NCBI GenBank assembly: GCA_021904315.1 | Contig: CM038923.1 | Span: 19,412,038 to 19,476,037 of the forward strand | Length of the DNA: 64,000 bases | Direction: 5' to 3' | From: Sphagnum magellanicum | Taxonomy: Eukaryota > Streptophyta > Sphagnopsida > Sphagnales > Sphagnaceae | Part shown: piece by piece, positions 8,392 to 40,237 of the stretch | Numbering within the stretch: position 1 is the stretch's first letter | Layout of the letters: each line of letters begins with the position of its first letter | The notes under the pieces: generated by a model | Databases searched by the model: none | Told to the model about the DNA's origin: nothing | What the model saw: only the letters and a program-made list of their open reading frames with translations | Made by a program: the position numbers and the translations under genes

Positions 8392-11300
8392 TTACTGAGT
8401 GCTAGAGGAAGCTCCATCAGAGCCACGACCGCTGGGATCCACACTTAGCTCCATCAATGCATTCTTTGGGTTGCCTTTCCAAAGTGTGTCTGTTCCAAAC
8501 TCTTGGAGTGTTCCAATGTTTGACATCTTGTGGTTGATGTAGAGTGTCACCTTGTATGTCTGCAACATTTTGTTACAGTTACACAGGAGCTTTTGTTTGC
8601 CTCGTCCCCATGTCTTAGGATTTGGAGACCATTGGGACTGGGCAACACAAACCAACTCACATACATGCCTTTCCACTCGGAACTCGTATTCGCATGCTTC
8701 ATCTTGACTCAACAAGCCCCAAACACCTTTGAAACATGGATAAACTGTACAGCGCATGCCATGATACTTCGCCTGATCAGATCCATCAGGGAACATGTTT
8801 GTTGGAAGCTCCGGCTGAAAATTGAAATCATACCTTAAAATTGGTGTTGGACCTCCAAGATCATGACACTCTGGTTGAAATCCAGTGCCACTTATGAACT
8901 CAGATGGTGTTTCTGTCACCCTTTGGTTTGACTGCAAAGTTGATGCTAAAGGTTTGGTAAAAGAAGCTGATGCAGAAGCAAAGCCATGGAATCCACCAGT
9001 CACTCCGAATGTGGCTTGAGAAGAAGTGGCTTGTGTCTGCTCCATGAAGGTGTCCTTCAAATCTTGCATTCCTACTAAACTGCTTTCATAAAGTGTTGCA
9101 GCATCACATCCCAAACATTGGAGCGATACATGTAGATGGTTTTGACACCAACCAAAACGTTTTGAGCAATGGTTTACTTGGTCCAGTGAAGTTGTGTTCA
9201 TGCCACAGCTCACATTAATTTTGGACTCTATTGTGTTTGATTGCTGCTTTTCTGTTTTTTTAAACAAAAATGTTAAAATTGGGGTTGTGTAGCTTTTCTT
9301 TAGCTGTTCAGGTATAGGGTCTATGTCACTATCCTCTAGCTGTTCAGGTACAGGGTTCCTATTCCAGACCCCATGTTGATAACCTGTATGAACTGTCACA
9401 AGAACATCCCGTTGGTTATTTTGCTGTATTTCTTTTCCCTTTGCTCCTTGACCTTTGCGATTGTCATCGTCCTCCCCGCCATCACCACCCTGATCCTTGT
9501 CTCCTTCACTAGGAGTATCTGTACCTCCAAGATGACTACCCCCCTCTCCACTAGTATCTCTTGTGCCACTGCCAAGCCCCCTCGTGATTTGCAACCTTGA
9601 TAAGTAATCCCACAAGTTAAATCCCAAGATTCCTGTGCTAGGGTCATTGACACTTTTAGCATGGACCTGCCCAATATCAGACTGATTCTCTTCTATCATT
9701 GTAGTTGTTACACCTCTGACTACTTGGTTGTATACCTTTCCAACATCCACATTTTCCAGGAACTTTTGTATCATGAAAAACATTGCAACTTGTGACAATG
9801 CATTTACATGTGAACCTTGTGGCTTTTCATGATCAGGTGGAGAGATTACCACCTTCTCCATGAAAATTGGGTTTTCAAACAAACTTTCCCCAAGGAACAC
9901 TTCTCCCCATAATCTGGTCCACTCCAATTCAGTGATACCCTCTACAACTATCACATTTTGGCGAGTCAAGGAAACTGTTGCAAAATCAAGTCCCACCCCC
10001 ACAATTTGGGCCATGCTTTTGGCATTTCCAAAGAGAAACTGTATCTTGCCTTCAAGTATCTTCGCAGTAACAATTAGTTTTCCCCCATGTAGAACTTGTG
10101 CCATGTGTGCCATCAATTGCTCCTGTACATCTTCTTGTGGCAGATTTTCTCCAGGTCGCATGTTACAAGCCAATTGTTGAAGCTGCTTGACACTCATAAT
10201 ACTTTGTTCCCTGATGCTAGGAAAGTGAATGGGGACAGTATCATTACCATCTCTACGAAAGGCTTCACTGTCTGAATAGTAACTCTCTCTTTCCCTCTCT
10301 CTTTCCCTCGTCTCTCTTTCGCTCTCTCTTTCCCTCTCTCTTTCCCTCTCTCTCTGCATTTTCTCATTCACAACATCGTCACTCAATGGGGAAATTCCAT
10401 GCACAACATCATTTAGACTGCTCTCAACTTTATGTTGCATAGCAGATTCCTTCATTTTAGGAACCATATGCCATTCATCACTTTCACAGAACCTTGCAAC
10501 AGTGAACTTCAAAATAGCAAGCTTTCTTTCATTCTCAAGCTGTTCACCATCATCAGACTTTTTCGCAACCATGTGCTGCTCAACATCTACACCCACTGTC
10601 GCAAGCATACGTTGGACAATCAAGATCTTGGCCCCTTCAATTCCATTGCGTCGCAAGTATGTGAACTCATTCTCAAACATAGAGTCAGAGTAATTTGAAA
10701 TATCACATGCCGTAGTAATGTTGTCCAACTTTTGTTGAAGGTGTTCTAATATTGCGCGTATAGCCTCAATTGGTACTGAAGCAAGACAAACCAACTTATT
10801 ACCACTTTTGAAATTTCATGTAAACTCTCAAACAACAAAAATTTGTAGATTTAGATTTGTAGCATACATGGATCTTGTTTTACCACAAAAACGAGGTGTT
10901 TGCAATTAGTATTTTCTCCTATACATTAGACAATTAAATGACAGTTAGCCAAAAAAATTATATTGTTTGAAAATGATTTCATCATGTGCTTACAAGGTGT
11001 CAAGCCTTCCTAATTTGAGCAACACTGAGAGTGAAAGTGCCCATTTGTTAGCCTAGGGTTCAAAAGGTCCACATTCCCACTTTTTGACACTAGATAGTTT
11101 TCCAAACATCATGACCATTCTTATAGTTAGACTTGGCATTTGGGGCAACATCACCTTTTTTTGTATGTTGAATTTAGACCACACTTCTCATGTCCAGAGG
11201 CTACAAGACCTGAAGTACTAGCTTTAATTTAACGTTTCTACCAATTTTATTCAGGCTAGAGGTGACCCAATGACGAAAAACATATAGCAACTACAAACAA

Positions 11301-12662
11301 AGAAATGTGATTGATAACGAGATTGTGGGTGCCTCTTCTGTACAGAAACCCTGTCTGCAAGAGGAAATTTGTTGAGCAAACCAATGCTTTTATTGAACTT
11401 GTAGAAGATAGTAGGAAGTTATTGTAGGTGAGAACAAGTGGTACTAGAGCACTTACCACCAATCGACATGATTCCAGAAGCAGATTGTAGCCTCCACTCT
11501 GTTTGCTTTCAGGTTTCCACCGGGCTTGAGGGACAGGGTCTGGCCACATGTCCTCCTCTTTAATCCATTGCCGTGGATCCATTCCCACCACCTATGCATA
11601 ACTCAAGTTCATCAAAATTATCCACAGGTAGAACCATGCACGTAGATGTTGTGGTCCATATAGGAATGAGAATATCAGAGACATATTAGACCACAAGAGC
11701 TTTCCGAATTGTTGTAAGTGCTGTATATACGTACATCTCGTGTGAGGTTCTTTCCGTAGATGGCAGGATTAATGAGTATGCTCCCTTGCGTAATGAAAAC
11801 AGCATAGTTCAGACGGAAACTGAAGGTCCAAACTCTAACACGTTCGATGTGCTCCGACTTCCCCCCGAAAAACTTTTCAATTTTATACCTCTTGAATTCG
11901 TCTCCATATAAGGTAACACCTCTCACATTCCTCACAAATGCCCCTGCCTCTGTGGGGCTGGTCAACACCTCTTCCGTGGCCTTCAGAAACAAGTTATCTA
12001 GCACTAGTGTTCCAAAGCCACGGCCTACCAGCACAAGAGGCTGATGATTCTTGCATAGATCCCATTCGTCCCTGCACAGACACACATCAATGTCCCGGCC
12101 AAAGGACATATGGCCTTAGAATCTAAATTTGTGATCCATTTCATCATTGCTGCTTGATGTACTTGACAAACCAATTGTTTTCCAGTCATCCAGTAATCCA
12201 AAGGGAATCCAATCAGACAGAATGCCCGATCTAAATTCTCTACGTCGTGACAGATGCATACCTGATGACAAGAGCTTTGAAGAGGTCATCGACGACATCA
12301 GCGACACGAGATTGACCAATATTATACGACACGAACAGCACCCGGACGTCAAAGCCTAAGTCAGCGGGTAGCCACTTCTCTGGCCAACACACATCGGGGT
12401 GGCTGCGCTGGGTCCACGCACTCTTCCATTCGTCCGGATCTCGAGGGTAGCTGTGGAAAAACAGAATGTTCATTTCTGTTTTCCGCATGTCTCCAGGAGG
12501 CGGCCATAGCTGATGAACTGCGGTCTGCATTCATGAACATGACTTGTTAATACAAGAAGATCGAAAGTCCAGGAATTTGCTAATAGCGAGCTCATAACAT
12601 AGATCGTGTACAACAAATTCAATCCTGTATCAAGAGTTTATGTAAGTACTCACTACCTGCAT
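8392..12662 (-). CDS. Pseudo-alpha/beta-hydrolase (SERAC1-like) fused to a large unknown C-terminal region
   Basis: Five coding exons give one frame of about 1047 residues: 12662-12657, 12524-12262, 12071-11735, 11591-11457 and 10794-8392. All junctions have GT donors and AG acceptors; the last acceptor has a weak pyrimidine tract. Exons 2-4 (residues 3-247) match the hydrolase module of the gene at 31.6-35.9 kb (VHQLWPPPGD, CWPEKWLP, FVRNVRG), with identical intron phases 0, 2, 0, 0. The nucleophile elbow GHSFGG is GRGFGT here (residues 106-111) and the DANHMDVCKP catalytic-histidine block is absent, so the module should be non-catalytic. Residues 248-1047 form one long exon: an Arg-Glu repeat (about 394-417), an Asp/Gly-rich linker (about 655-700) and a Cys- and strand-rich C-terminus. 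I do not recognise this region. The ATG sits in a six-base first exon, modelled on the related gene. A binding or scaffold role is only a guess. Confidence 0.75.
10282..10355 (-). repeat. Coding GA/CT microsatellite
   Basis: An imperfect CT-rich run on the plus strand that reads on the minus strand as about 24 residues of alternating Arg and Glu inside the long last exon of the pseudo-hydrolase gene. It keeps frame. Such tracts change length easily, so length polymorphism is expected here. Confidence 0.85.
10795..11456. other. Large intron of the pseudo-hydrolase gene
   Basis: About 660 bp between the small fourth exon and the long last exon. A good donor (GTAAGT) follows 11457; the acceptor next to 10794 is weak. 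A second, better-looking acceptor lies about 20 bp further into the exon but would break the frame. No other gene is seen inside. Confidence 0.55.
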
Positions 12663-12667
12663 GATTA

Positions 12668-12925
12668 GCAGCTATGCAGATCGCAGATGTAGACAGCAAG
12701 CTCACGGCAAGCAAAGTATTCCAAACTCTTCCAATGATCTGATTTCACGATGGCGCAGCCCACAAAATCGTCGGTGCTCTTCAACAGATGATGGAATCGC
12801 TTCCTACCGACATGTTGAGCAGCTCTACAGATCGTAGTTGATGTAGGAAGCAAAATCGCACGCAAGAAAGCTGCGTAGTATTCGATCCTCTTCCAGTGAT
12901 CTGATCTCGCAATGGCAGGCTACAC
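12668..12925. repeat. Tandem duplication of about 150 bp in the 5' flank of the pseudo-hydrolase gene
   Basis: Two diverged copies start at about 12668 and 12819. Each carries 'agcagct', a 'cagatcg' block, a 'gcaag' block and 'cttccaatgatctgat' or its variant 'cttccagtgatctgat'. The first copy abuts the proposed start exon, so the duplication probably sits in the promoter or 5' leader. Confidence 0.6.
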
Positions 12926-13041
12926 AATTCTGTTGCGCGTGGCTGAATCTCAGAGGCAAGCCAAGAGAGCTGCAGAAACGTGTAGGAAAGTATGTAACAC
13001 TGGGGTTCGCAGAGAAGTGGCGAAGTTCTTCTCCTCACCTG

Positions 13042-13129
13042 TTTGTAAAGCGTTTCCGAAAATGCGTGGAGAAAAGGAGCCACAGTTTGTAAAGCATTTT
13101 CAAAAACGCGTTGAAAAAAGGACCCCACT
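13042..13129. repeat. Tandem repeat of 44 bp, two copies
   Basis: A unit beginning 'tttgtaaagc' occurs at 13042 and 13086 with several substitutions. It lies about 380 bp upstream of the pseudo-hydrolase start, in a locally GC-richer patch that may be promoter sequence. An open plus-strand frame (12912-13229) covers it but looks incidental. Confidence 0.6.
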
Positions 13130-13229
13130 GGCTCGTTCCACGCTCCTTCCCATATGTTCTTTCATGCTTATCCCTAAAGCATCAGCCTGTAACAGTGCCT
13201 TCCAAAGTTATGGAAGGCACCTCTTTTGA

Positions 13230-14954
13230 TCTCTGTCTATCTAAATTTTTTTGGGGGGACCATCGTCGGCGCAAAAATTAACAGAAAAATGATCTCTCAC
13301 ATCTGCAGCCACTAACAACAAGGGGTGTGTCACACTGTGGCCTTGCTATTTACATTAAAAAATATTTTAAGGCAAAAGAAGAATTATGGAAACTCAAATA
13401 TTTTACCATGCAAAAATATAATCTTTAGAAAATCCTCTAAAAGAAACCAAAGTCCTTCATAATATCAATAACTCTATAACCAATTTGAAGTTTCAACACA
13501 AGCCAAATTTTCATCTTTCAAAAATCCTCATATAAAATTAGACTTATTACCTAGGGGCCAAAATCCATTAAACTACTATACTCTATTGCGAATCTACACA
13601 CAATATCCTTGCATTGGTAGGCAAGGCCAACAAAGTATGGAGTTACATGCTAACACCAAAACAAGCCAATAAAATGAAGATGCAGGGAAAAAAAATCATG
13701 TTTCTTTCTATAGGCAAAGGGTATATTTTTAGACCCTTCCTGGATTTTCAGCGATTGGCTCACTGGCCTTGTCATTCACAATGGGTGCCTCAATTCCAAG
13801 AAGGGTCTAAAATAGACCCTTTCCTTATAGATACAGCACACAGAGAAATTTCTTAAATGTATTGGGAAAGCACCTTATATCCAAGAGTATCCCTCCTAGA
13901 TAAAAAGAAGGATATTACAATACTCCTTAAGAGTTAGAGGCCCTATAAAAATGAGAGGGATCTTACACCTAAATAAAAACCCACCCTGATTGTTATAATG
14001 TATTTAAACAACAATTGTCAAGTGCAAGAACTCAAAAAGGATCTTCGAAGTGGAAGAAATCTTCCATGGTGGAAGCTCAAACCCCATGAAAATGAGGTCA
14101 AGCTCTTATGATGGAAAAGGGTAATGCCCCTAGCCCTTCCTATCACAGGCTACTGCCCTCGTGCCTAGGCACCTCAAAACAAGGAAGGGCCTCTAACCCT
14201 ACCCTTCAGTTTATTAACTAATGAATTGAACCCCAGTGACTAGATGAATTACATGTATAAATTATGCCCAAATGCATTTCAGGTGGATATTGAATGACCC
14301 AACTAAATTAATTTTTTCCTTATGGGTGATTGAAACAATCCCATGAAAGTTCATGTTATTTAGAAATGAAATAAGTTTCATACATGGAATATCACTAATA
14401 TTTTTTCTTTTTTTCTTCATTTGTAAATAGTTCATGTAGATTTTTTCTTCTCCATTAAAAATCATCTAAATCCCATGAATGAACGTCATAAAATATCACC
14501 CATGAATTTCAATGGATGAAATTGCTACATTTTAAGGGATAAAATTTTATGCAATTTCAATATGATATAAAGATTATGTTCATGACATATTTGTTGAGAA
14601 TTTTATTTCATTCACAAAAATTCATCCAAACTTCATTCATGAAATGTCAGTTGTTGTATATATGATGTCATTGCAATTTGGGGGTGGGGTGTAAAGTCTA
14701 ATCTAGTTACTCATCTGAGGGGGGAAAATGTACTAGGTGGTAGGGATTTTGCTAGCCAAATTTTTTGCCCCTGGATAAAGTTAAAGTCCTATCTGATTCC
14801 ATGTTCCCCTCTTGTAAATCATGGATAAAATATCACAAATGAAATTTATATGAATTTTTTTGAGTGGAATAAAATTTCAGATAGCATTTCAGGGATGATC
14901 TTTATTTCATCCCTGCAATATTGTGAAGTTTAATCCTTGAAAGTTCATTGGTTG
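13230..14954. other. AT-rich interval without a recognisable gene
   Basis: Short open frames only. Two 'gaccctt/agggtct' words near 13720-13820 lie in inverted orientation but are too short to define an element. Confidence 0.5.
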
Positions 14955-15270
14955 AAAATTTACAAATGATATTTCATGGATGTTAATATATAATATGGAA
15001 TACAATCTGCTTGGTTATTTTGCGAAGTTCATTGTACCTGTATCACAAGTCCACTTTGCCAAATCACCAACCCAAATTGACTTTACGATTTTATGGAATT
15101 GCAAAGTACACACTTTTCCAATTCCAAAGTGGATGTTGCCAAATCCCCCAGTGGGGATGGTTCATTCCAGATGATTCTGTGACATCACAGGGTCACTAGT
15201 TATCTACTCTGGTTTTGAGATAATTAGTGAACTCTCTGCATGTTCCTGCCATTTGTTTCATCTCCGCAAG
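14955..15270 (+). repeat. Direct duplication, unit A, copy 2
   Basis: Partner of 2490-2790, same strand and word order. It is somewhat less AT-rich than copy 1 and carries a few small insertions. Confidence 0.7.
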
Positions 15271-15989
15271 ATATACCCTAATAACCTTCTTTTAACAGTT
15301 CACCTACACCCATACCATGGTATAAAAAAATCCCAAATTTTGGGCAGCTTCTCAACATTATAGATATATGGTCCTCCAAGAAATTCAGGGTGTCTTTGTC
15401 CAAATTTAACATTTCCCAGGACAGATACAGCCTTGAAGAGGCCTTACTCAAGGAGATGAAGGTTTAAGCTAGGCATGCTTTGCTACCAGCTCAAACATTT
15501 TGAGTTGCCAATAGCATTTCAAGTGTGCACAAGCAACAGTTGAAATGCCATAGAATGTGTGTGTTGCTGGCTGAAACCAAAGCACCAGTCACTAGAGATT
15601 ACGTACAGGTTCAATTTAAAACCAATTTTCACCTTCAAACCCACTGTTGCTAAGTCTATTTCACTCTGTGGGCTGCCAAAATAAGCTTCACGCTGCCCAC
15701 AATTTTTTTAATTTCTGGGCTGTCCAATGCCCCATTTTTTCTAGTCTAATGTAACTTCTGCCCCACAAAATCACACTGTCCCTGAATTGTTTTGAAATTC
15801 ATAGGCTGCCTATACTTTTCCCCACTATCCTTCTCTCGTTCTTTTGAACACATTTTAATAAACACATTGATGTCTGAAATGTGCAATGACATTTCAACTG
15901 TTACAATGGGAACATAGGTTGGCTTCAAATCTACATCATTCATTAAAATGGGTACTGCAACCTTCTTGCAACACCCCCAACATGATGCG

Positions 15990-16455
15990 AAGCTATTGCA
16001 AAATTCAATTCTAATAAGGCATGGGAACAAGGATGGCAATCTCATCCATCTTCTGTCCAAGTAATCTCGGAACCCTGTTGTCATTTCGCCCTAGCAGCAA
16101 ATTTTCACTTCTTTTTTACTTGAAAAAATAATTTCCACATATGCAAAGGATTTCTGTAACATACAAAAGGCCAAAATACATCAGATTTCAAAAGGAAAAA
16201 AATTATCTCTACTACAGGTTCCAATAGGGTTGCCAAAATATAAAAGGATTCTTTTAATGTTTTTTACTTTCATACCTGGTCCATAGCCAGATTTGGCTAA
16301 ATCTTCATGTGGATGATTGCCAGTTTGGCTACACCACACAACTGGAAAAAGAAAACCCCGATGCTCCTGGCTTCATCGATTTACGGCAATTGCAAGGGAA
16401 CTGGAATTCTTACACCAAGAAATCCACAAGCTGTGACGGTCCGAGAGAGATTGCA
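15990..16455 (+). repeat. Direct duplication, unit B, copy 2 (upstream of the PPR pseudogene)
   Basis: Partner of 5930-6400. It ends about 120 bp before the first candidate ATG of the PPR pseudogene (16572), so it probably carries that gene's promoter or 5' leader. The 720 bp between units A and B here contain no recognisable gene. Confidence 0.75.
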
Positions 16456-16571
16456 GTCAAATGGACTTCAGACACTCCAGAGGGAACTGCATTTCCGTCT
16501 ACTTCGGATACTCTTGGATTGTGAAGAGTGAGAGAGAGAGAGAAATTGCCAAGGCTTTTTGAGCAGCAGCG

Positions 16572-19500
16572 ATGTCTTCCTCATCATCTATGCAGCAAGT
16601 TCAATGTCCATGTGCAACATCTAACTCTTTTGAAGGCCACAAAGGCAGCAGCACCAGCTCCACCACCGCATGGAGAAGAGAGAGTTCAACCAGGAGGAGC
16701 TTGCTGCTCCGTGTCTGTGTGCACCGTCGATCCCAATTTACCCATCAACAACTTTTGCAGTACGCCGGGTTTCTTCCCAGAGTGCACCGAATAGAAACTG
16801 AGGCGGCAATCAGAGCTCCCGGCGAATGTAAGCTTTCTTGCGTTGTTCCTCTCTCATCGTGTGTCTACTGTCTGCCTCTCGTGGTTTGTTTGCCGAAAAC
16901 TGTTGATCTGATATCTTCGGAAGCGAATAGAAAGATTGCACACGTTGTATGCGAGATGCAGTACGACCTCAGCGTGACTTCTATGTGATCAAAGTGCATG
17001 ACTCGGAAGGAAGTTTTTCTGCAGTCCCTGGAGGTCACACAGAGACACTGTGGCGAGAGTTCTTTGTGGATCCTTCGCATTGGTGGGACCACAGACCAGA
17101 GAAGGTAACTGAACATCACTCCTGTCAGAGTTCACATGTCAATGGAGCCATAGCTCTAGTTGGTGTCAATCTTGTTGCTCTCTGTTGGTTGTTGCAATCC
17201 TGCCCTGGTCTAAACTTGGCAGAAATTCTTTTCAGGTCCTTTGCACTGGTGGGCTAGTATCAGTCTCCTGGAGAAGATAAGTAAATGAAATATGAAGATG
17301 GAGAAGGTCAGTGTGACTTTCTCTGTTATTATGATACCAATTATGCCAGGATGTGGAGAATACATGGCCGATCAGCTTGACCTGGATTTCTGGTTGTAGA
17401 CAAATGAAAGGTACCCCGATTTCAAACACAAGAAGATCGGAGAAGCACTCTGGATTGAGGACAGACGAAGCCCAGCATGGTGACAGCAGAGATGGCTGCA
17501 ATGGCACTAGGCAAAGTGCAATTGACATTTTTGCATGGAATCAGAAGCTTACAAAACATGAAAAGGATGGGCAACTGGAGAAGGCAATGCAGCTTCTCCA
17601 ACAAATGCAACAAGAAGGAACAAGTCCTGACAAATTCACTTTTGTTCAGGTGATTAAGGCATGTGCTGGTTTAGGAAGACTTGAAGATGGGAGACTTGTT
17701 CATAAACAGCTCATTCAAAGTGGTTACAAGTCCGATGCCTTTGTGTGCAATAGCCTGGTGGACATGTATGCAAAATGTGGGAGCATTGAGGAAGCTTGGA
17801 CAGTGTTTGAGAAGATGCCATCTCAAAATGTTGTCACTTGGACCACCATCATATTGGGACATGTGCAATGTCAGCAAGGGTATTGAAACCATGTGCCAGT
17901 GTGGTTGCGATTGAAGAGGGCAGGTGTGTTCATCAGCAGATCATGCAAAAGTGGTTTGGAGTCTCATGTCTTTGTGGGGAGCAGCTTGGTGGACATGTAT
18001 GCAAAGTGTGGGAGCATTGACGATGCTGGTAATGTGTTCAAGAAGATGTCATCTCGAGATGTGGTTAGTTGCACTGTCATGATATTGGCACACATGCAAT
18101 GCAGGGAATGGCAGGAGGCATTCGAACTATTTGAACAAATGCAATAGGAGGGCGTGCAACCAGACTCTGTTACTTTTGTGGGGGTGCTGAATGCATGTGC
18201 CAGTGTACTTGCCCTCAAAAAGGGCAGCTGTGTTCATCAGCAAACCATTGAACATGGTTTGGAGCCTAATGTCTTTGTGGGGAGTAGTTTGGTGGACATG
18301 TATGCAAAGTGTGGGAGCCTGGAGGATGCTTGGAGTGTGTTGAACAAGATGCCATCTCGAAATGTGGTCACTTGGAGCACCATGATATTGGGACATGTGA
18401 AATGTGGGCAAGGGCAGAAGGAACTTGTACTATTTCAACATATGCAACAGGAAGGTGTGCAACCAGACTCTGTTACTTTTGTGGGGGTGCTGACAGCATG
18501 TCCCAGCATGGTTGCAATTGAAGAGGGTAGGTGTGTTCATCGGGACATTATCGAAAGCGGATTGGAATCTGATGTCTTTGTGGGGAGTAGCTTAGTTAAC
18601 AGGTATGCAAAGTGTGGGAGCATGGAGGATGCTTGGAGGGTGTTCAACAAGATGCCATCCCGAACTGTGGTCACTGGGAATGCCATACTTGGAGGATGTG
18701 CCATGAATGGGCATGGTAAGGAAGCTCTTAAATATTTTGAACAGATGTTTGCAGAAGGTGTACAGCCAGATGATACCACTTTTATTTGTCTTCTGTCAGC
18801 TTGTCACCATGCATGTTTGGTTGATGAAGGCATGCACTGTTACACTTCAATGGTCACTGACTGTATGATTTCTGCAAAGTTGGAACATTACACCTGCATG
18901 GTTGACCATGCTGGTCATGTACAGGAGGTAGAGAATATGGTCATGGCAATGCCCTGGAAACTGCATGTGGCTGCATGGATGGCTTTACTTGGTGCTTGCA
19001 GGATTCATGGTAATGTGGAGATGGCAGAATGTGTTGCCAGACGAATTCTTGAAATGGAACCTGACAATGCTGCTGATTATGGGGTGCCGTCAAACGTCTC
19101 TGCTGCTGCTGGCAACTGGCATCTCTGTGAGAATGTTAAATGTTAGAGAGAGGAAAAGGTGGGATGAAATAGCCGGGTCGCACCTGGATTGAAGTGAACA
19201 ATGAGGTGCATAAGTTTGTTGTAAAGGATCAAGGCACTGCCAGATTATTGAATTCATGCAGATTTGCAGAGGTTGTCAGGGCTCATGCACACTGTGGGGT
19301 ATGTGCCTTTTACAAGATTCATTCTGCATGTTGTGGAAGAAGAAGAATTGGTGTTTCAGTTGTGCCACCATAGTGAGAAACTGGCTATTGCATTTGGGCT
19401 CATCAACCCAGCTCCTAGTAGTCCTCTCCGAATAAAAAAAATCTGTGGGTTTTTAAGATTGCCACATCTCCAAGAAGTTCACCTCAAACATACTAAGGGA

Positions 19501-20385: not shown

Positions 20386-20408
20386 AACATTTCCACAAAA
20401 AAAAAATA

Positions 20409-20575
20409 CTATCACAACTATTAACAACTTCTCCATACATACTTTAACTCAACCTGAATAAAATTGAGCAATGACCTGATCATTTCCAACAAACTGATCA
20501 CAACTATCAACAACTTCTCCGTACATACACTTTAACTCAACCTGAATAAAATTGAGCAATGACCTCATCATTTCC
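20409..20575. repeat. Tandem repeat of about 85-90 bp, two copies
   Basis: The unit 'atcacaactat...caacttctcc...tttaactcaacctgaataaaattgagcaatgacct' occurs twice with few changes. It sits exactly between the end of the inverted PPR duplication and the truncated TypA gene, so it may mark the rearrangement joint. Confidence 0.75.
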
Positions 20576-20672: not shown

Positions 20673-21493
20673 CTGATGCCCCCAGATTTGCAAAGAGATC
20701 AAAAACCAAAGTCTCCACCTCTGAACACCTTTGTTCAGTGACTGCCAACAAAAAACACCAGTTTGAGTAAAGGTGGGCCTTCTCTTCAGAAGTGGCCAAA
20801 AGGACACATAAGCTTGAGTGACTGTGGGTGAGAAGAAAACTTTTTTTTCTTATTCCAATACTTGATATAGAAAACTCCTGGCTACAAGAAGCAGGGGGAG
20901 AGGAGAAAATGGCAGAGGGAGACAAAAACCAGAAGGTTGGTCAACTTTATTGAGAAGAAGAATAGGACAAAGACCAAGTTTGAGAGCCTTAGCAACAACA
21001 AACTTGGTCTGTGCTAATGGACCTTCACCAGCATCCACCACCAATACTGCCCCTTCCACCATTCCCACCACTCTCTCCACCTTTGCTCCACAAAAGACAC
21101 ATTGCACAGAACACATGAGAATTGGTATCCTGTCCTTCACATGTTCTTGTTCATCAGATCTCTGATTTACCAGCTTGAATTAACACAATAGATTGCTTGA
21201 TCCCCCCCAACCCTTCTCTCTCTCTCTCTCTCTCTCTCTCCCCCTGTCTCTCTCTGAGAATCAGACTAAGGGATCAGATTCTCTTCCACTACCTCCCAGT
21301 GGTCAATATTGCACACGAATCCTCTGTTTTTTTCTGCAGCCTTGATCTGTTGTATGTCCAAAGATGAGCTTTCCATGGACAATTCAGGCAAGAGATAAGG
21401 AGAGAGAGAAAATCATACCTCCCCACCAAAGTTGGCATGACCAGGAGTGTCCACAACATTCAGCTCCATTCCCTTCCATGTGATTGATGTATA
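20673..21493 (-). pseudogene. Truncated TypA/BipA-type GTPase gene, three exons
   Basis: Three exons in one frame with canonical borders: 21493-21419 (ending [13 protein letters not shown]), 21080-20930 (VERVVGMVEGAVLVVDAGEG...ILLLNKVD) and 20741-20673 (VTEQRCSEVETLVFDLFANL). Intron phases agree. These are the G3 (DTPGH) and G4 (NKVD) motifs of the organellar TypA/BipA translational GTPase, a ribosome-associated factor. The G1 P-loop exon is not found upstream, and everything after the G4 region (domains II-V) is missing: the sequence stops resembling TypA near 20660, next to the tandem repeat and the PPR duplication. The retained exons are undamaged, so truncation looks recent or the rest lies elsewhere. 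A Ser/Phe-rich minus frame at 21739-22035 could be a transit-peptide exon, but this is weak. Confidence 0.75.
21214..21242. repeat. CT microsatellite
   Basis: An uninterrupted CT run inside the first visible intron of the TypA fragment, followed by a shorter run after 'cccctgt'. Confidence 0.9.
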
Positions 21494-29751: not shown

Positions 29752-29759
29752 CTGAGAGA

Positions 29760-31641
29760 ACCAAAATCCAGATTAATCCCTTCTAACACAAAATCTGCCT
29801 ACATTGCGGGATGCACCTTCAACTGGGTCTACATGATACCGACCTTGTGCTTTCCACAAGAAAAAATCTTCAAAATTATTGAACTTGATGGACTTTGAAA
29901 GAGCTTGAAAGTAGAACTGCATCATATCCTACGCAATAGATCTAAGTCATGAGATTTTCTCAACATACCAATCAACTTCATTCAAAAGGAAATAACAATA
30001 GGAAACATTCTCACCATGCTTTCTGTAACCTAAGCTCCTCTTCCAGACTACCTGACTACCAATCTAAGAGTGTTGTGCGTGTCAGTGTTGCATGTCAAAC
30101 TTCTTGAATCAAGAAGATAAAAACTTGCCAATTTGCATGTCCCCACTACTTTGAACAAGTCTTATCTCAAGGCATATGGTAAGCATTCTCCAAGCTCATG
30201 ATCGTGCAGTAGCATGTGCTAGATGACTTCCCTCCTGGCATTTCAACTTTCATACAATACCCTGCAGTGAAGAGCTACTAATGCAGCATGATTGTAGTTC
30301 ACAAGCCATATTCATAGCCAGAGAACCTCAACAGGCCAAGTTCAATTGGTTTGCTGACAAACAACTGAGAGTATATGGGTGCATGCAGCTATGGATCAGC
30401 AGCCCCAAAGCTTTTCATGTTTCGGGGAAACCATCCTTTGCAGAAACCTATTCAAGACTTATTCAACTACCCATTCTCATCATAGATTCTATAACCTAAG
30501 GTCCTCTTCCAGATTAACTTGTTATCAACCTAAGAGTGTTTCAATCTAAGATTTCTTGATAAGAACAATTGCAGCTACATGTCAAATGGACAAAGTTTCA
30601 CTTTTGGATTTCAGGGAACTTGTCCTTTCACACATCCTAATAAAGGCTTCACCAAAATTATACAAGTTTAGCAGAGAGAATTTATGAGCTTGTGCAGCTT
30701 TATTCATCAGCCTTAAATTGTGCAGGAAAATTGTTCCTTGAGAAAGTATTTGATGGCTTACAGTATACTATGAAATTGTGAGACCGCAAAATAGGTGCAA
30801 ACATATTGACCCTCAGTCTACAAGATCTTACCATAGTCCGTAGCCAAAGGGAACAATTGCAGAGACGGTTTGATGCATAGAAACAAGCATAGCATGCTTG
30901 GACAAAGTCACTTGATCATGCTTATCACATTAATGCTAAGATTGTGTGAATTCACTACTGCAACCATGCATTTTCTGTGTTGCAGATGATGCATCTTATA
31001 GTCAAACACTCTCTTGATTCCTACCAGTAATTAACACCATTAACTTGAACATGTTCAAAAAGGAAAACAATTCAAATACTTTGTTAGAGTGCAAGTTTGA
31101 CACACCATTATCTTGTATTACAGATCTCTTCCTTAGAGAAGAAGCTCTAGATAGAGATGCAACTTGTGAATAGATTAGAAGGGGCAGAAAGCTCTTGCCT
31201 AATCATATTGCAATGATAGCTGCCTTTGTATGCTCCACTAATCAATTAGGCACAAACTTGAAAGTCAAATTTTCCACTCTATTTTGCACATTTGATGAGC
31301 ATATTTCTCAAACTCAGTGCAATCTTATAGCTATTTGATACAAAGTCAACTTCTTGGAAGTGCTGACATCTATGAGAACAAAATGATGCTTCCTCTTAAA
31401 AATCAGCCCTATTTGCATGATCTGCTCCATGAATTTCATACATAACTCCTCAAACAAGGTGTTAAAAGTACAGCTGTAATACACTTTGGGATGAATTTTA
31501 ACATGAAGGACATGCAATGAAACCTCCAAGTTTAAGATATTCCTGCATGTCAAAACAGCATGCCAGATAGCTTGCATGCCTGTTGTTCACTTGATCTAGA
31601 ATTGTTCATAATCAAAGACCTGCTCATGCAATAGCTCGCTT
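29760..31641. other. Interval between the unknown exon and the hydrolase-kinase gene
   Basis: No recognised gene. Positions 30015-30110 and 30480-30570 share an about 80 bp direct repeat ('taacctaag(c/g)tcctcttccaga' then 'ctaagagtgtt'). An 87-codon minus frame (31314-31577) is unidentified. The part next to 31642 is probably the 3' untranslated region of the kinase gene. Confidence 0.45.
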
Positions 31642-34600
31642 CTAATTCACATCCCATTTGCATGCCAAAAGACTAGATCTGATTTCTTGAAGACTACTGC
31701 AAATAGCTGAGAAATGTGGTCGCATACATGGATCAGGAGCCCAACACTGCTTGATCAGGGAAAGTAATTGTGCAGGGTAATTGCTGTTTGAAGGCAAAAA
31801 TGGCCTTTCATTTTGCGGGGAACTAATTCTTTCCCGCAATCTCACTGGGGGGTAACCAAAAGGGTGCAATTTACCAGAGAGAATTTGCGAGCACAAGATC
31901 GCAAAGCTGTAGACATCAGCTCTTTTGGCAGAAAAACGCCTTGGGTGCCCTTCCTGGTCCTCAAAGGCCTCTGGTGCCCTCCATGCTGCTGCTCCACAAA
32001 TCTGAGAGTGCAACATAGATGAAGAGGTGTTGACCTTTGTCTTTGCCAAACCAAAATCAGCCAACTTCACCTCCACATACCCATCAGCAGAGAGTTCAGG
32101 GTTTGTGTTTGGACTAACCAAGATGTTATTAGGTTTAAGGTCACGGTGCACAACCCCTTGTCCATGCAAGTACTCCATGCCTGAAGCAATCTGTAACATG
32201 ACATCAACAGCTGCTTGAGGTGTGAATGGCTTGTGTGAATCCTTTCGTTCTGCAATGTGCCTTTCAAGATTTGTGGGCATGAGTTCCATCACAATTGAAC
32301 ACTTGGTAGAATCTTGCTGGCAACATATCAATCGTACAACATGTGGATGGTTCAAGCGAACCATGACTCCAACCTCATTCTCAAATTCACGCTTCTGTTT
32401 CTCACCAAAAAGAGGATTGAAGGATTTCTCAGCACATGCCATCCCAAACCATGTGTATTGAGAAACTGATCCGAATGAGCCCTTCCCCAAAAATTCTCCT
32501 CGCTTTGCTTCAGGATCAGAGGCCAAAACGCACCACGGACGCAGTCCCTGTGGTAAGTCATAGACATTCATGACATTCTGCAATCTCCATTGCAGATAAT
32601 CTGCAAAGTTGATCCTTTCTCCTGTTATAGAACCACCAGCATTACTCATCATCAACTGCCGAAGCTCTGCAATGCGTGGATCCCATAACTCTTTATTCTT
32701 CTGAATATCTTGTGCTTTGAGTTGCTCCATTCTTGAATGAACAGATGCCCATGTGCAATTATCAATGTCTTTTCTGAACAACCTTGTGCATGATTGCCAA
32801 TCAATAATGACAGCAACAAATGCACATATGTTATCCATTTCCACAAGTATTGATTTGAGACTCAATGGCTCATCACTGCACTCTTGCACAATCAAGTCTG
32901 CTTTCTGTACAATGCGGAACAACTCTTTGTACATTGGATCAGCCAAAGTTGCACAAGTCTCCCCCATGACATTACATTTGCTGGTCACTATAGTGGAGAC
33001 CATGTACTTGCACTGCAACACATTCACCTGCAGTTTTGAATTTTGACCAAATGTTCTATCATCTAGGTCACATATTGCTGTTAAAATCCTTTCCTTGAAG
33101 ACTTGTGTATTGACAGAATTCAATGAAGTAGCTCCGAATATGAAAGCATCATCAGCACCTACAAAAGCACAATTCAAAGCATGTTGAAGATGTAATGTGC
33201 CATCTATGTGCAAGACTGATCACAAACACACTATGTTCAGTTCTGCAACAAGATTTAATGAACTTCTGCATGTGTGCAGAAAGAACTTCAGCTCATTCTG
33301 GGATGAAGTGGAAAGTCCTTAGTAAAGTTTTGGCAAAAACAAAAGGTCTTGTAACTATGATCCACAACAGTGATTTTCATTACTCCACTCGAATTACCAC
33401 CATCTTCAGTACTTCATGCATAAGCCAAGAAGATGAAACTAGCATGAAGGACATAGATGGAGTACCATCTGGCTGCAAAATTGTGTTTGCCTCAGACTGA
33501 TCACCTTCTGTAGCATTCTCTGGCTCAGAGTACATATCCTCCACCTGTACCTCTTTCATGCCACTCCAGTAGTGCTCTCCGTTCTCATTAAAACCATAAT
33601 TCATGACTTCAATGTTACCTACTCCATTTAAGGCACAAGACAGAAAGGTTAAGATTCTAAAATATGTATCTTACCAGGTAATTATACAACATTTTCAACT
33701 AATGCCACAAACCAAGGAACTTAAGACATGAAACTTACATACATCAAAGTCATCATATTATTGCGCCTTTTAATGAAGAGAAAGTTTTACATGACCGGCA
33801 AATTGATTGTACACTGAGTTAGACATGTGGTAAACTAGGACAGAAAATTATCCTGATACCTTCGCTTGAATTTAGATGCACCATTCCAGGCTGTTCAACA
33901 TTACATATCTGCAAAACCATGTACTCAATTGTTTCATTTAGGATGGAAGCTTCATTGGTCTGAAATCTAAAACAAATGCATGCACACAAAAAACCGAATC
34001 ATCCTCCTTTGAATTAGGATTCATAACATCTTGGCTGATCTGCCGAGTTCCTGTTTCCAATAAAGACTGGTTTCTGTAATGCTGCAACGTTAATGAAATA
34101 TTGAACAAACTAGGTTATTGAAACTCACCATTTGACAAGTAATGATAAATTGTCAAAGGAACCCATAACTGGGATGTTCTTTACTTGGGGGCTTGCACAC
34201 CTAACTAGCTCATTTAAACTCACCTTCCCACAAGTAATGATATATTGTACAAGAAACTTGTAGCTGGGATGTTCTTTACTTGGAGGCTTGCACACATCCA
34301 TGTGATTGGCATCCTCAACCTTGTAAGTCCTATCTCCTGTTTTTTGTGCCGGGATAGAATCCACCAAAATTCCCTAGTCCGGCCATAGAACCCAAAATTG
34401 CACGTGTCAGCGCACAACAACCTCAAGGCATCACAGGTGTTTGGTTTCAAAAAATCCATTTCATCCAACACATGCTTACCACTTCCTTCATTGGCCTGCC
34501 CTCACAAAAAGCACATATATTGATTCTGTTTTCTGCAACAATATTATCAAAATCCACTGATAAATATTCCATATCTAGTTGCCAGGGTGGAATGTTCTCC

Positions 34601-35877
34601 GGTATTCCAGGACGATGCATGCTTCTCAACAACTGGTTCACATATTTAGCAATATTGGTTGCTTGAGCATGCGGAACAGAATAAAAAGCTACCCCTCTCA
34701 CATTCCTCAAAAATACTTCCGCACGCTGCACTGTAGCATTGGACAAGGATTTGTAAGGATTTCGGATGGTTGATGGTGTCTTCAATCCTACAACCAACCT
34801 CCTCAACACCAACCCTCCAAAACTATGGCCTATTAACACAATAGGATGATGCCATTCATACCTGCACAAAACATATTCATTTGCCATACTGTTTCAGGGA
34901 ATACTTAATCAACGTCTACATTCCAAATTAATTAAGTCTATTCAGTTTTGACTGAAATATATCTTGGGACTGCACACCTCCGACATTATACCTAAAGCCA
35001 ATTGTACACTCCTGCACTGCCGCTCTCCTATGCCATTTTCAGACTTCAGAAAGTCAAAGCGCTTTCCACTTCTCAAAGCAAGCTTCTAAACACCAATCTT
35101 TAAAAATAGTGTAATTTACAAATATGGATAATTCAATTAAACCTGCACAATACTCTGCTCTGCTCATTTTTCAGGAAGCGTTGCAACACCATCTATAATA
35201 GCCTGATACATGGTATCACTGATAAGCATACAGAATTTAACACAATTGAGAGATGACCAAATTGTTGGGTTAGAAATCTTATATCTGAAACTTTTAGTTG
35301 CTTTCACATATTTGTGAGTGAAACACTACATTTGCCCAAGCATGCCATTTTGACAATGAAAGTGAGGCCACTTTGTACCTAGAATCCATGAGATTCTGGA
35401 ACAGGTTACGTGCAATCTGCGTTACCATAAAATGAGGGTCGGTTACTATATCTGCACTGTATGATACAGAGAAAATACGCACAGATTCCCCCAAATCAAA
35501 TGGCAACCATTCTCGAGGCCAACAAACATCATCATGCCCTCGTTGCGTCCATGTACTACTCCAGGCATCATTTGCAATTAATTGCAGCCCATGGAACAAC
35601 ACCACATCCAATTCAATGCTTTGCTTGTCTCCAGGAGGAGGCCATAGCTGATGCACTGGCCAATCACTCTGCCACCAAAATTCAACATTCAAGAAATTGC
35701 ACAACAACCAATGTCCAAACCACATCAGCAGCATTTGGAATTTACAGAGCACAGGCCACAAATTGATTTATGAATGTCTTGAAATGAGCAACTAACATAA
35801 AAATACTCAGAAATAGACTACTACAACAGACAAGAAGAATCTGAAAGGTGAAAGGAACTCACAAAATTAGCAGCCAT
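31642..35877 (-). CDS. Alpha/beta-hydrolase (SERAC1-like) - protein kinase fusion
   Basis: Seven exons (35877-35863, 35668-35379, 34861-34480, 34373-34224, 33908-33860, 33618-33466, 33158-31642) sum to 2556 bases, exactly 852 codons with the stop; every junction is GT-AG and phase-matched. Residues 6-279 are a SERAC1-type serine-hydrolase module: PVHQLWPPPGD, STWTQRGHDDVCWPREWLP, nucleophile elbow GHSFGG (Ser115), DANHMDVCKP with the likely catalytic His253. Residues 280-346 are an acidic linker. Residues 347 to about 560 are predicted helical (KELFRIVQKADLIVQEC) and unassigned. Residues about 565-845 are a protein kinase of the tyrosine-kinase-like group: GKGSFGSV loop 571-578, Lys591, Glu608, HRD 684-686, DFG 714-716, APE 741-743, all intact. 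The ATG is in a 15-base exon (MAANF). Both modules look catalytically competent; no transmembrane segment is seen. A signalling or immune role is inferred from the NB-ARC partner of the same hydrolase module at 38.9-40.2 kb. Confidence 0.85.
34107..34294 (-). repeat. 94-bp tandem duplication of an exon end plus its splice donor
   Basis: The last 71 bases of exon 4 of the hydrolase-kinase gene, its GTGAGT donor and about 20 bases of intron are repeated immediately downstream (copy a 34294-34201, copy b 34200-34107). The second copy carries VCKPPSKEHPS coding sequence and its own GTGAGT. The flank after its donor matches the donor flank of the NB-ARC pseudogene (40084 and below) better than copy a does. 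Confidence 0.85.
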
Positions 35878-37985
35878 GATGCTCAAAATAACTCACTGGT
35901 TGTACATAAATTCACGATATGGTAACACTCATAGATAGTATAATCAACTGACAGAACTGCCATTCGACTTTATTTACACAAGCTGAGAGCAACTCAAAAA
36001 ATCCTCAAGCCTGGCGTAAGCAGCTCTCATACGACATAAGAGGGATGTTTCTCAGAAGAACAAGCTTCAATGTTTTAAAGGCTAAAAGAGCGTGTCCGAG
36101 GTCCCATACAAATATAAGCATCCATATTGCTTTCATTCATAAGTAGAGAAAATCCCTGACAAACTTCTGCAGTTACAAATATCATGCACTGTCAGACATT
36201 GTTAAGATTCCCCTCACCTTCGAATCAAACGACAGAGTCAATTTCTCCGACCTCCCAGCTAGCCACACTTAAATATACAACACAAATCTAAAAGCCTCAA
36301 AATATTATTTGGACAAAACCTGACAGTACACACTATTCTGTCCAGCTAGTTTGGATCTGCTGAAATGACTGATAGACATTTGCTGACACTTAAGATTACT
36401 CATTTGCGATCAAAACTCCAGCAATGATTAGGCCATAACCATTACGTGTTCCGCTAAAAGCATGTAAACATAATCCAGACCACTAAATATTGCATCATCA
36501 CGAGAAGTATGCGAAAGGCCAAATGTTGTACCAACAAACATGCGAAACGCCAAAATGCTACACCATCAGGAACAACATAGGAAACGCCAAAATGTCGCCT
36601 CAACACGAACAATCTCTAATATAAAAAGGAAAAGCGATCAAGAGATTAGACACCAAGTCACGCATCATTTTGAACAAGTTCATTTGATCACTCCACAAAC
36701 ATTTTTTTGACAGGAACAAATCACCAATTAAACTACAATGATAAAAAAATGGCAAGCTTAAGTGAAAACAATTGGATATTCACTACTATCGAAGAATTGA
36801 CAAAGATGGAATACTCACAGAAACATTAGACACGACGATCAAGATCCCTTATCGCCATGTAAACCTCCTTGCAACCGTGATACACTGAATACCACTTGCA
36901 ATACCAGTTCAGTTCAATTCAGATTCGTTTGAAGAGTTCTAGCCAATTCAAAAGTATTCGGTGCATGTGCCGTTCCTCCACAGCTAACGGCTCTCATTTT
37001 TTCAGAATTAATAGATAGCAGAACAAGTTCTCCGAAATGCTTTCTGCCACGTAACAGACGATTGCTTAAAATTCTCCCGTCACAAATAGGATAATTGGCT
37101 GGAGATTATTTCACTCTTAACTTGCAACGACGCAACATAGCATAAAGTCCGTAGCTCAGCGACAAATACATAAATAGAACAACGAAAAAATAAGAATGAA
37201 AACAGCAAAGAAAATTACTTTCAGTCCATTCAGCTGGTGGTCTCCTGATCAGATAACCGGACAATTATTGACTCTTCCACAAACAATTACTCTCACGTTA
37301 TGTAAGTGTTCACTAACCACCAACAACTAAAGAACGATGTTGAAAACGAATACCGAAAACAAGATGAAATTCAACAATCTCAAGCACATCAATCGAGACA
37401 TCAATCACAAATGACAACCTCAGAGTTTACGATTAAATTTAACACTTCTATTTTCCTAAAAAATTTCCCGTGCATGAAGTTTTCATCCAGCTTTTGCAAA
37501 CGAAATCAGCACAAAGCAACTGAAAATCCGAGAACCAAATCAGACCCCAAGACTGCAAGTAACGTCCGAAAGCAACTTCTGGAATTGATCTGTTACAAGA
37601 CCACGTGCGTCCAACAAGCAATCAATTCACAACCAACAAAAACTAATGACTCAACGAGTCGATCTACGAGAAAACCACCATTTAGAAGCAGACAGGAGAA
37701 AGTTGACTGCATGCTAGCAGCATAAAAGGGAAATGACTATCTCCTAGGAGTCCTAGGAGATACAGGCTCCAGAGTCAAAAACTATTAGGAAACCTTCAAA
37801 ACACCGAGGCCTGTCAGATACTGACGCCGGACGACATGTTCCACGGGAAACAGAAAAACCATTGAAAATAACTAGTAAAATGCTTTTACCTTGATATTCA
37901 CCTTTCAGTAACGAGTCAAGACCGTATTACATGATCGATCTTCGGTACTCTCCACCGCAGAGCAGACATAACATTTCAGTAAGGC
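35878..37985. other. 5' flank of the hydrolase-kinase gene
   Basis: No recognised coding sequence. The region is AT-rich with scattered GC-richer words and presumably contains the promoter and 5' untranslated region of the minus-strand hydrolase-kinase gene. I see no convincing TATA box at a defensible distance. A 139-codon plus frame (37306-37725) is Gln/Thr/Ser/Lys-rich and unidentified. Confidence 0.45.
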
Positions 37986-37989
37986 TCTG

Positions 37990-38500
37990 TGAAGCTCGAC
38001 CACATGTTTTGTTATAACCTACAAGGCGAGACACTGGGCCAAAAGAACAAGGCAAGCGTGTCTTCTGAAATAAAGAACCAAATTCTGAATTGTAAACAAA
38101 GCTTTATAACACGCAACAGCAATATTCTTATCTGGAAAACAAGCTACAACCGTGCAGGTCAATCCAGCGATAAAAAAGAAGACAGAATGGAGGGGCCGAA
38201 CAAAAGGAAAATGTCAGCGATGAAAATGCAACAGAAAAACATACAAGCTAGAGATACTACCGATACAATATCCATCATACCTATCAACGAAGGAAAATGC
38301 GTCTAAAATACACCTTGGGGAGGTGGAAAACGATGTCAGGTCTTCAACATTTAAAAGAATACATCTTCTTGATACAATTAGTCTCAATTTCTTCAAAATA
38401 ACAAATTAAAAAAAAACTCACAAAAGGGAAAATCTTCTTCAAATCGCTCTTGCATACGGGGCAGAGTCTTGTTGCTACAGAACAGTAATGTTCTCAAGCA
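37990..38500 (+). repeat. Direct duplication, unit C, copy 1
   Basis: Aligns to 46980-47500 in the same orientation: shared blocks are 'agctttataa', 'gcaacagcaat', 'aaaacaagct', 'aggaaaatgtcag/agaaaaatgtcag', 'cttggggaggtgg', 'gtcaggtctt' and 'cagtaatgttctcaa'. A plus-strand frame stays open through most of both copies and aligns residue by residue (GETL, CxQSFI, RKMS). It lies upstream of minus-strand genes in both places, so promoter or leader sequence is an alternative. Confidence 0.7.
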
Positions 38501-38704
38501 TTGGAAACCTGGACAAAGCAACAAAAATATATATATTCATCACTCATGGGACGAAATAATTGCACTGACTAACAACAAAATTAGAAGATTGTAAACTTCA
38601 ATGCTACAATGACAAAACTATGGCTCGCAAAAACAAACGAACTTTGAGAGATGAATATGCACTGTAAAACCATTAGAAGTGAGATCAGTGGACATCTGAA
38701 AATG

Positions 38705-38935
38705 TCCTAGCCGCCGACTGAGGGTAACCCTAGCCGCCGCCTAACACTATCCTAGCTGCCGTCTAATCCTTACTCTAACCGGTTCCTAACCCTAGCCTCG
38801 CCGCTGTCTAACCGTATCCTTGCCGCCGCCTAACTGGAAGCGTACCCGCCGCGTATCCCTAACCCTAGCCACCGCCTAGCCCGGATCTTAGCCACGGCCA
38901 GTCCTAAGTAGCTTCCAGTTCCAAGCCCTAGCTAC
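38705..38935. repeat. GC-rich degenerate minisatellite with 'ccctagccgccgcctaac' units
   Basis: About ten loosely repeated units of some 20-25 bp containing 'ccctagccgccg' or 'aaccctag', an island of high GC in AT-rich DNA directly downstream of the NB-ARC pseudogene. The 'ccctaaccctag' words resemble telomere sequence but the unit is not the plant telomere repeat. Confidence 0.75.
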
Positions 38936-38948
38936 CACTGTTCAATTT

Positions 38949-40237
38949 AACCTAATTATTATAAGGTTGTGAAGGAAATGCTGCAAAGTAAGGAAAACAG
39001 TCCTTCAAGCGCCAGTCATCCCCAGACAGGAGATTATAGCGAAGCTTCAAACGCTCATACAACTTCTCTTCAACACTCCTCTCTTGCAGGCGTGATTCCT
39101 TTAGCTTCTTCAGTAGTGGCTCCCATTCAAATTCAGTTGACGGCTTTCCGATCTTTGCTCTGCCTATAACCTTCAGAGCTAACGGAAGACCTTGGCACTC
39201 CTCAGCCATGGACTGTGCCAGTGCCTCTAATTTACATGGAAAATTGGATGGTGCTCTGAATGCATGCATACAAAAGAGGCTCCAACTATCCTCCTTTAAA
39301 AGAGGAGACATATGCTCTTGGCTTATGTCTGGACTTGCTCCTTCCAATAAAGATAGGTTTCTAGTGCTCAAGAATGTGACACTTCCTTTTCCCTTGGCTA
39401 AGTCAAGTGAATCAAACACCTTGTCTTTCCAAACATCATCCAAAACCAGGAACACTCTTTCCATCTAAACTGAGTGTAATTTGAGCTTGTAATCCTCTGC
39501 GTTCGCATTCAATTCTGGTTTGAGACCCAGTTCTTGACTTAGGCTCCGATATAGGGCCATTATGTCAGGAATTTGCCCCACTGTGCGCCAAATGAATTTC
39601 GCTCCTTGAAAATGGCCATATATCTTTGCGCTCCCATACAGTGCTTGAAGAAGAAGAGTTTTCCCAACTCCACGCATGCCCCATACTCGCACATATTGAG
39701 GAGCTGCATCGCTTCATTCTGAGGTTACCAATGTTTCTACCCTCTTCACATAGCTCTCCAGACCAAGCATTGATTTAGGCAAGTCATGAACATCTTGGAA
39801 AGCTTGATCACATTCTCGTGCCACCTTCAGAATCAACATACAACTATCAAAACGTTAGCCCATTTGTTGCTCAAAGAAAAAATATTAATACATCATTACT
39901 GACTTAAGGTGAATACTCTATACCAGGAAATTTGCATGGGGCATTTACTTTACACTATCATAATTCATCAAAATCTCAAGCATTCTTGCTTACCTCCTAA
40001 CAGAAAAATTTAATTGTATTTTATAGAGTAGGTAATGTTTCAATGTTAACGAAATATCGAACAAACTAGGTTATTAAAACTCACCTGTACACAAGTAATG
40101 ATAAATTGTAGAAGCAACCCGGAGCTGGGATGTTCTTTACTTGGGGGCTTGCACACCTCCATGTGATCGGCATCCTCAACCTTGTAAGAGTTATTTCCTG
40201 CTGATCGTTCTGCCGAGCTAAAATCCACCAAAATTCC
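38949..40237 (-). pseudogene. Hydrolase-module tail plus NB-ARC domain (HNL-type receptor), broken
   Basis: Exon 40237-40085 (GILVDFSSAERSAGN...DADHMEVCKPPSKEHPS) equals exon 4 of the hydrolase-kinase gene and ends in a good donor. The next exon starts at 39825 (VARECDQAFQDVHDL) and encodes an NB-ARC ATPase: P-loop GMRGVGKT (about 39680-39655), kinase-2 VFLVLDDVW (about 39456-39430), GLPLALKVIG (about 39196-39167), and an RNBS-D-like KDCFPYFAAFP ending at 38949. It has one frameshift near 39780, an in-frame TGA at 39716-39714 and a TAG before the kinase-2 block, and it stops before the MHD motif and any leucine-rich repeats. Upstream it is cut at 40.25 kb by an inverted fragment of another gene, so the first hydrolase exons are gone. 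Hydrolase-NBS-LRR proteins are a class reported from liverworts; the LRR part was not found here. Confidence 0.8.

Follow-up and report, generated by a model that had tools for sequence, protein, structure and literature searches.

Copies of a Hyd-NLR-type hydrolase head at three neighbouring Sphagnum loci: a pseudoenzyme fusion, a candidate hydrolase-MLKL-like fusion and a dead receptor fragment

Three neighbouring loci with one hydrolase head

Here we describe a stretch of Sphagnum magellanicum nuclear DNA of 64,000 nucleotides (assembly GCA_021904315.1, contig CM038923.1, positions 19,412,038 to 19,476,037; hereafter the window), in which copies of one hydrolase head, of the type carried by the hydrolase-NB-ARC receptors (HNL or Hyd-NLR) of bryophytes, are found in three neighbouring minus-strand loci: A (8.4-12.5 kb), B (31.6-35.7 kb) and C (38.9-40.2 kb). 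Their features are collected in Table 1, and database proteins are cited by their P numbers. An initial annotation had seen here a possible hydrolase-headed immune locus, apparently made by shuffling one exon module among three C-terminal partners. The long open exons that it placed on the minus strand were recovered, its kinase (Pfam E 2.7e-46) and NB-ARC (Pfam E 4.4e-24) are real domains, and the shared head is indeed joined to differing C-terminal parts.

The heads of the three loci are related, as tblastn with Sphagnum hydrolase-NLR proteins matches all of them: exon 1 of A (E 1.6e-17, P0148), two stretches of B (E 6.9e-43 and 2.7e-67) and, at C, the final hydrolase exon (E 1.2e-21). The use of the same hydrolase exons throughout was confirmed for A and B, while at C exon 3 alone is present. 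Regarding the proposed intron phases (0, 2, 0, 0), phases 2, 0, 0 lie at matching places in A and B, and in A the 800-residue region follows these three introns; the first phase-0 intron was not recovered, the ATG being contiguous with exon 1 in A and no ATG exon being identified in B. Phase-0 introns within and after the hydrolase are present in A and B, and C has just the one after the hydrolase.

The head belongs, as had been supposed, to an immune-receptor class. A protein search with the hydrolase part of B gave 50 proteins of 471-1364 residues, 46 of them with a precomputed NB-ARC, and the best five matches are Sphagnum proteins with 72-74% identity; one of the 50, the S. fallax protein P0165 (BDL97_19G094100), combines the head with an armadillo region and has no NB-ARC. 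Parts of two papers describe Hyd-NLRs as known in bryophytes (PMC3352924, PMC11218826), and passages of the latter mention Sphagnum hydrolase-NLRs together with immune-related tests of atypical N-terminal domains. The shared hydrolase module is real, and the role of such heads in immune receptors is already known. In a tree of 49 head rows of at least 230 residues, B is grouped with 17 Sphagnum Hyd-NLR-type heads (an 18-row set with support 99/96, the armadillo protein P0165 among them), and the A family is monophyletic (seven heads, 100/100) on its own long stem of 1.97. The nucleophile elbow GHCFG, with Cys for the nucleophile Ser, characterizes a Hyd-NB-ARC subgroup (P0168, P0183, P0185, P0186, P0188).

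An intact NB-ARC was found by tblastn at none of the three loci (C has stops, B a relic of 174 nt and A no match), and across the whole window full-length Hyd-NLR queries gave no leucine-rich repeat (LRR) match at E 1e-3. Going by locus tags, the counterpart of the window would be the Hyd-NLR region of S. fallax chromosome 17, where two Hyd-NLRs (P0166, BDL97_17G107600; P0154, 17G107800) and an A-family protein (P0005, 17G108100) have tags close in number, and the kinase P0044 (BDL97_17G103000) belongs to the same 17G series.

Table 1. Features of loci A, B and C in the window
Feature	Position	Strand	Evidence
A exon 1, hydrolase head MQTAVHQLWPPPGD...	12262..12530	-	tblastn, 93% to P0003 and 91% to P0005; exon model
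A exon 2, hydrolase; GRGFG vs GHSFG in the nearest Hyd-NLR set, catalytic Ser absent	11735..12071	-	exon model, alignment
A exon 3, final part of hydrolase-like head, catalytic His region altered	11457..11591	-	exon model, alignment
A exon 4, 800-residue region	8392..10794	-	807-aa stop-to-stop ORF 8392-10815; start at 10794 a putative alternative
B exon 1, hydrolase	35379..35668	-	tblastn, exon model
B exon 2, hydrolase with GHSFG nucleophile elbow	34480..34861	-	tblastn, exon model, alignment
B exon 3, end of hydrolase with DANHMDVCKPPS (catalytic His)	34224..34373	-	tblastn, exon model, alignment
95-bp tandem duplication of B exon 3 tail and splice donor; in-frame stop in second copy	34108..34295	-	repeat analysis
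NB-ARC relic in B intron (P0150 residues 433-488)	33923..34096	-	tblastn P0150, 51%, E 1.2e-7
B linker exon K1 (ICNVEQPGMVHLNSSE); its Met may begin a separate kinase gene	33860..33908	-	similar peptide in S. fallax P0044
B linker exon K2	33466..33618	-	exon model
B exon K3, four-helix bundle, brace and protein kinase (K, HRD, DFG intact)	31642..33158	-	Pfam, AF2
C hydrolase exon 3 only	40085..40237	-	tblastn
C NB-ARC exon, ending before the LRR	38952..39824	-	80% identity to S. magellanicum P0150; Pfam, tblastn
Inverted repeat, two blocks (40287-40353, 40423-40538) where C exon 2 is expected	40287..40538	-	partner blocks in 45924-46201

The head at loci A and C

At locus A the head is followed by a long region without detectable known domains: no significant Pfam domain was found in the 800-residue region nor in its relative P0002, and tblastn with Hyd-NLR queries detected no NB-ARC. 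The open reading frame (ORF) of 807 residues has 27 homologues, and all the species-named ones are from Sphagnum. In nine of these 27, a hydrolase head is found by BLAST, and proteins from five named Sphagnum species (P0002, P0003, P0005, P0014, P0025) have head and tail in one chain. The nucleophile Ser is absent in ten out of ten heads, i.e., those of the nine homologues and of the window copy, its site reading GRGFG, GRDFG, GGGFG, GCGFG, GRGGFG or GHEFG; the catalytic His region is alignable in six of seven heads and altered in five, P0014 having a His nearby. In the window copy, use of the acceptor that agrees with the relatives (exon from 10775) shifts the frame at the start of exon 4, and P0004, from other records, shares this altered frame; an acceptor 19 bases upstream, before 10794, would keep the frame. 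An AlphaFold2 (AF2) model of the A protein, computed with P0003 and 25 of the 26 other homologues (P0009 left out), reached a mean predicted local distance difference test score (pLDDT) of 43.4 and did not enter the fold searches, and a scan of genome contigs with P0003 gave no match. Judged from its sequence, A is a conserved Sphagnum pseudoenzyme family in which a hydrolase head is joined to some 800 residues that lack known domains, and its protein would probably act as a binding or regulatory scaffold.

Locus C retains the NB-ARC exon, interrupted by two in-frame stops (TGA at 39714-39716 and TAG at 39465-39467), and neither hydrolase exons 1-2 nor the LRR were found around it by tblastn with full Hyd-NLR queries. 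By these features C is a pseudogene of a hydrolase-NB-ARC receptor. The blocks of the inverted repeat are 91 and 96% complementary to their partners and enclose about 5.4 kb with PPR-like fragments; this structure may be the mark of a rearrangement that removed exons 1-2. A degenerate 22-bp repeat (CCTCGCCGCCGCCTAACCCTAG) is also present at 38729-38834, about 120 bp beyond the downstream end of the NB-ARC ORF.

Other features of the window are PPR genes or fragments at 17335-19146 on the plus strand, with an E-motif match in the plus-strand ORF and 303-bp tandem repeats at 17884-18770 within the region, and at 43709-44889 on the minus strand. A piece of a translation GTPase with an EF-Tu-type GTP-binding domain (E 3e-10) lies at 20850-21179 on the minus strand, and the ORFs next to it, as far as about 21.6 kb, resemble additional GTPase pieces by eye.

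Locus B: one gene or two units

Six exons can be chained at locus B, with GT-AG at all five introns and 846 open codons in frame. The hydrolase part, whose three exons are intact and reach 75% identity with Hyd-NLR heads of Sphagnum, retains both the Ser of GHSFG and the catalytic His of DANHM. The intron after exon 3 contains a stretch of NB-ARC which, compared at the DNA level with the NB-ARC of C, has 118 of 158 aligned bases equal and 21 gap columns (alignment score 103, the best of 200 shuffles reaching 39). Because of this relic, B is considered to descend from a Hyd-NLR; it would be a former receptor that lost NB-ARC and LRR and whose three hydrolase exons would splice in frame into the downstream kinase gene, giving a predicted hydrolase-MLKL-like protein of 846 residues. 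For the same reason an insertion of hydrolase exons by exon shuffling was ranked below the decay of tandem Hyd-NLRs. Exon shuffling was already proposed for the whole HNL class in 2012, in a part of PMC3352924; for B, the decay of a Hyd-NLR with splicing into, or simple proximity to, a kinase gene is a simpler origin of the pairing than a moved exon module.

The kinase part was modelled by AF2 from 67 sequences (66 of 120 listed proteins and the window ORF) with a pLDDT of 82.6, as a bundle of helices (35-57, 67-85, 94-115, 131-146), a long helix (157-191) and a kinase after it. Its catalytic residues are intact (K265, HRD 358-360, DFG 388-390), and among the 67 rows K is kept in 66, HRD in 61 and DFG in 64. 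Among the best 120 of 2,346 relatives of the kinase ORF, the species-named ones are Sphagnum proteins down to P0093, a Ceratodon protein (P0105) standing lower. Downstream of the ORF end at 31642 there is no Hyd-NLR NB-ARC or LRR match, PNL queries not having been run, and a scan of viral contigs with P0047 gave a single weak match of 32% (L001).

The link of the bundle with MLKL was approached in two steps. In an hhalign comparison of 22 chosen rows of the window subfamily with 24 chosen other bundle-kinases from the same search, the N-terminal parts align over 170 columns (probability 99, E 4.3e-18). In turn, a profile of 13 N-terminal parts (the window and 12 of 15 stretches, P0085, P0126 and P0132 being left out) matches, along almost its full length, 6ka4 (E 9.8e-6) and 6lba (E 7.3e-4). 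The first entry, labelled 'F22L4.1 protein' in the PDB copy, we take to be Arabidopsis MLKL; the second is an MLKL structure according to part of PMC10881975. Pfam on the same 13 parts gives DUF1221 in eight, MLKL_N in one and RPW8, weakly (E 0.01), in one. Together, the two steps indicate that the bundle and brace of B are homologous to those of AtMLKL. In structure searches with the kinase model (Foldseek, VIA-align), the matches listed are to kinase domains alone and so bear on that part and not on the helix bundle.

The joining of hydrolase and kinase finds an echo at two other loci. The S. fallax kinase P0044 has the last 24 residues of hydrolase exon 3, diverged, in frame with linker and kinase; the metagenome kinase P0047 has 48 residues of exon 3 (81% identity to the typed exon-3 consensus) running uninterrupted through linker and kinase, with the K2/K3 junction exactly as in the B splice. 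Since P0047 starts two residues past the position of the exon-3 acceptor, it would represent either genomic DNA from which introns have been lost or a message spliced in part, and both would imply exon 3-kinase splicing; the uninterrupted reading and the exact K2/K3 join point to a spliced message. Furthermore, the head of B keeps 122 of 134 sites that are invariant in 13 chosen Hyd-NLR heads and the relic 12 of 19 (12 of these proteins serving for the NB-ARC part), the most divergent of the 13 heads scoring 135/146 (P0161) and 135/145 (P0159) and three more distant heads 117, 109 and 109 of 135. In a neutral simulation with 10% substitution, indels not counted, 4% of copies stayed free of stops.

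The alternative that survives best, which we rate as fairly close in plausibility to the three-fates reading set out below, is that B comprises two units, a decaying Hyd-NLR (hydrolase exons 1-3 and the relic) upstream of an independent MLKL-like kinase starting at K1 or K2, with A and C as described. Several observations speak for it and weigh against a fusion. No full-length hydrolase-kinase protein occurs among the best 120 of 2,346 kinases and the 50 head proteins: a kinase domain is present in none of the 50, and a hydrolase piece, of exon 3 only, in just two of the 120, P0044 retaining merely its diverged end. The Met of K1 could be the start of an independent kinase, and different starts are annotated for further Sphagnum members of the kinase family (P0033, P0071, P0073). 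The terminal branch of B in the head tree is long (0.28 vs a median of 0.056), the tail of its exon 3 is duplicated, and the relic itself denotes a broken receptor. Between B and C, exon 3 shows 21 nonsynonymous and two synonymous differences, so that an omega of 0.3 is rejected (p 1e-4) and an omega of 1 is not (p 0.11); its identity (125/145 ungapped bases) is like that of the adjoining duplicated tail and intron (111/127). Purifying selection on exon 3, when tested, was not supported by either the substitution counts or the comparison with the flank. The count of invariant sites separates weakly, since the dead NB-ARC of C still keeps 117/134, and chance alone would give a phase-0 match at the exon 3/K1 junction in about one case out of three. 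Nor is the MLKL link evident from the window alone, whose bundle finds no MLKL in a PDB search and no MLKL_N, DUF1221 or RPW8 in Pfam; in the profile search the score of a designed helical protein lies between those of the two MLKL structures (E 6.9e-4), neither stretch of this protein passing alone. Against two units stand the stop-free 822 nt that code for the hydrolase and still have their splice sites, next to a relic of NB-ARC that carries several indels, and the in-frame joins of exon 3 to the kinase in P0044 and P0047. On balance a one-gene fusion is slightly ahead, and B is a candidate hydrolase-MLKL-like fusion that would be transcribed as a single mRNA.

Proposed three fates of one head, and known systems

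The reading that we favour, tentatively and as somewhat short of an even chance, is that of a cluster of Sphagnum Hyd-NLRs (HNLs) whose common receptor head has met three fates: a pseudoenzyme fusion (A), a hydrolase-MLKL-like fusion (B) and a dead fragment (C). Three functional members of an immune locus created by exon shuffling, as initially annotated, now appear improbable. The common head and the matching intron phases agree with such a trio, as do the close numbers of the S. fallax tags 17G107600 and 17G107800 (Hyd-NLRs) and 17G108100 (A family) and the standing of Hyd-NLRs as immune-receptor candidates in parts of PMC11218826; nevertheless, C is dead, which refutes the proposal for that locus, A has neither the catalytic Ser nor a detectable NB-ARC, and B has its NB-ARC reduced to an intronic relic. 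An artefact of assembly or annotation, which the inverted and tandem repeats within the cluster might suggest, is most improbable given the A head-tail join in five named Sphagnum species, the exon 3-kinase joins of P0044 and P0047, and the finding that in P0004, from other records, A exon 4 begins in the same altered frame.

All activities of the predicted B protein are putative. Should the fusion be real, the kinase and brace, standing in the place of the NB-ARC, might be a switch by which helix bundle and hydrolase are released and brought into clusters, with an immune or cell-death output as the result. According to part of PMC9950082, the MLKLs of Arabidopsis function in resistance mediated by TNLs, and a HeLo four-helix bundle is present in MLKLs. 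A more far-reaching version, which we regard as possible and doubtful, is that Sphagnum has fused a hydrolase head to an MLKL-like bundle-kinase without NB-ARC as a single-chain hydrolase-executioner, its head controlled by a kinase and not by a nucleotide switch; A could then be a partner, a decoy or a brake.

To our knowledge, no substrate is known for the hydrolase heads that moss and liverwort receptors carry, and their link to cell death is open. If true, the joining of a hydrolase to an MLKL-like part would point to a downstream partner, as fused proteins reveal partners in a pathway, and the conserved dead hydrolase of A, in the same family, would serve as a natural experiment on the functions that depend on catalysis. 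The pairing of a hydrolase with an MLKL-like part appears to be new: among the matches listed by searches of the open full-text literature, a scope outside which most subscription papers lie, neither a title nor the opening of an abstract deals with such a protein.

Among known systems, the HNL/Hyd-NLR receptors of bryophytes share with the cluster the hydrolase head, the NB-ARC in the case of C, and, by a part of PMC3352924, phase-0 introns inside the hydrolase and between it and the next domain; they differ in that none of A, B and C is a full HNL, that an extra phase-2 intron is present and that A and B have other C-terminal parts. The S. fallax protein P0165 offers the likeness of a hydrolase head without NB-ARC, and its partner, an armadillo repeat region, makes the difference. 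The plant MLKLs of the AtMLKL family resemble the kinase part of B in the succession of four-helix bundle, brace and kinase, and in the match of the N-terminal profile to 6ka4 and 6lba. Unlike AtMLKLs, which are pseudokinases, B has intact kinase catalytic residues, and a hydrolase stands ahead of its bundle. Finally, in the PNL or Pkn-NLR proteins of mosses, as passages of PMC3352924 and PMC11218826 present them, kinase and NLR parts are likewise combined in a moss; there the kinase is followed by NB-ARC and LRR, whereas in B it comes after the hydrolase and the NB-ARC has been reduced to a relic.

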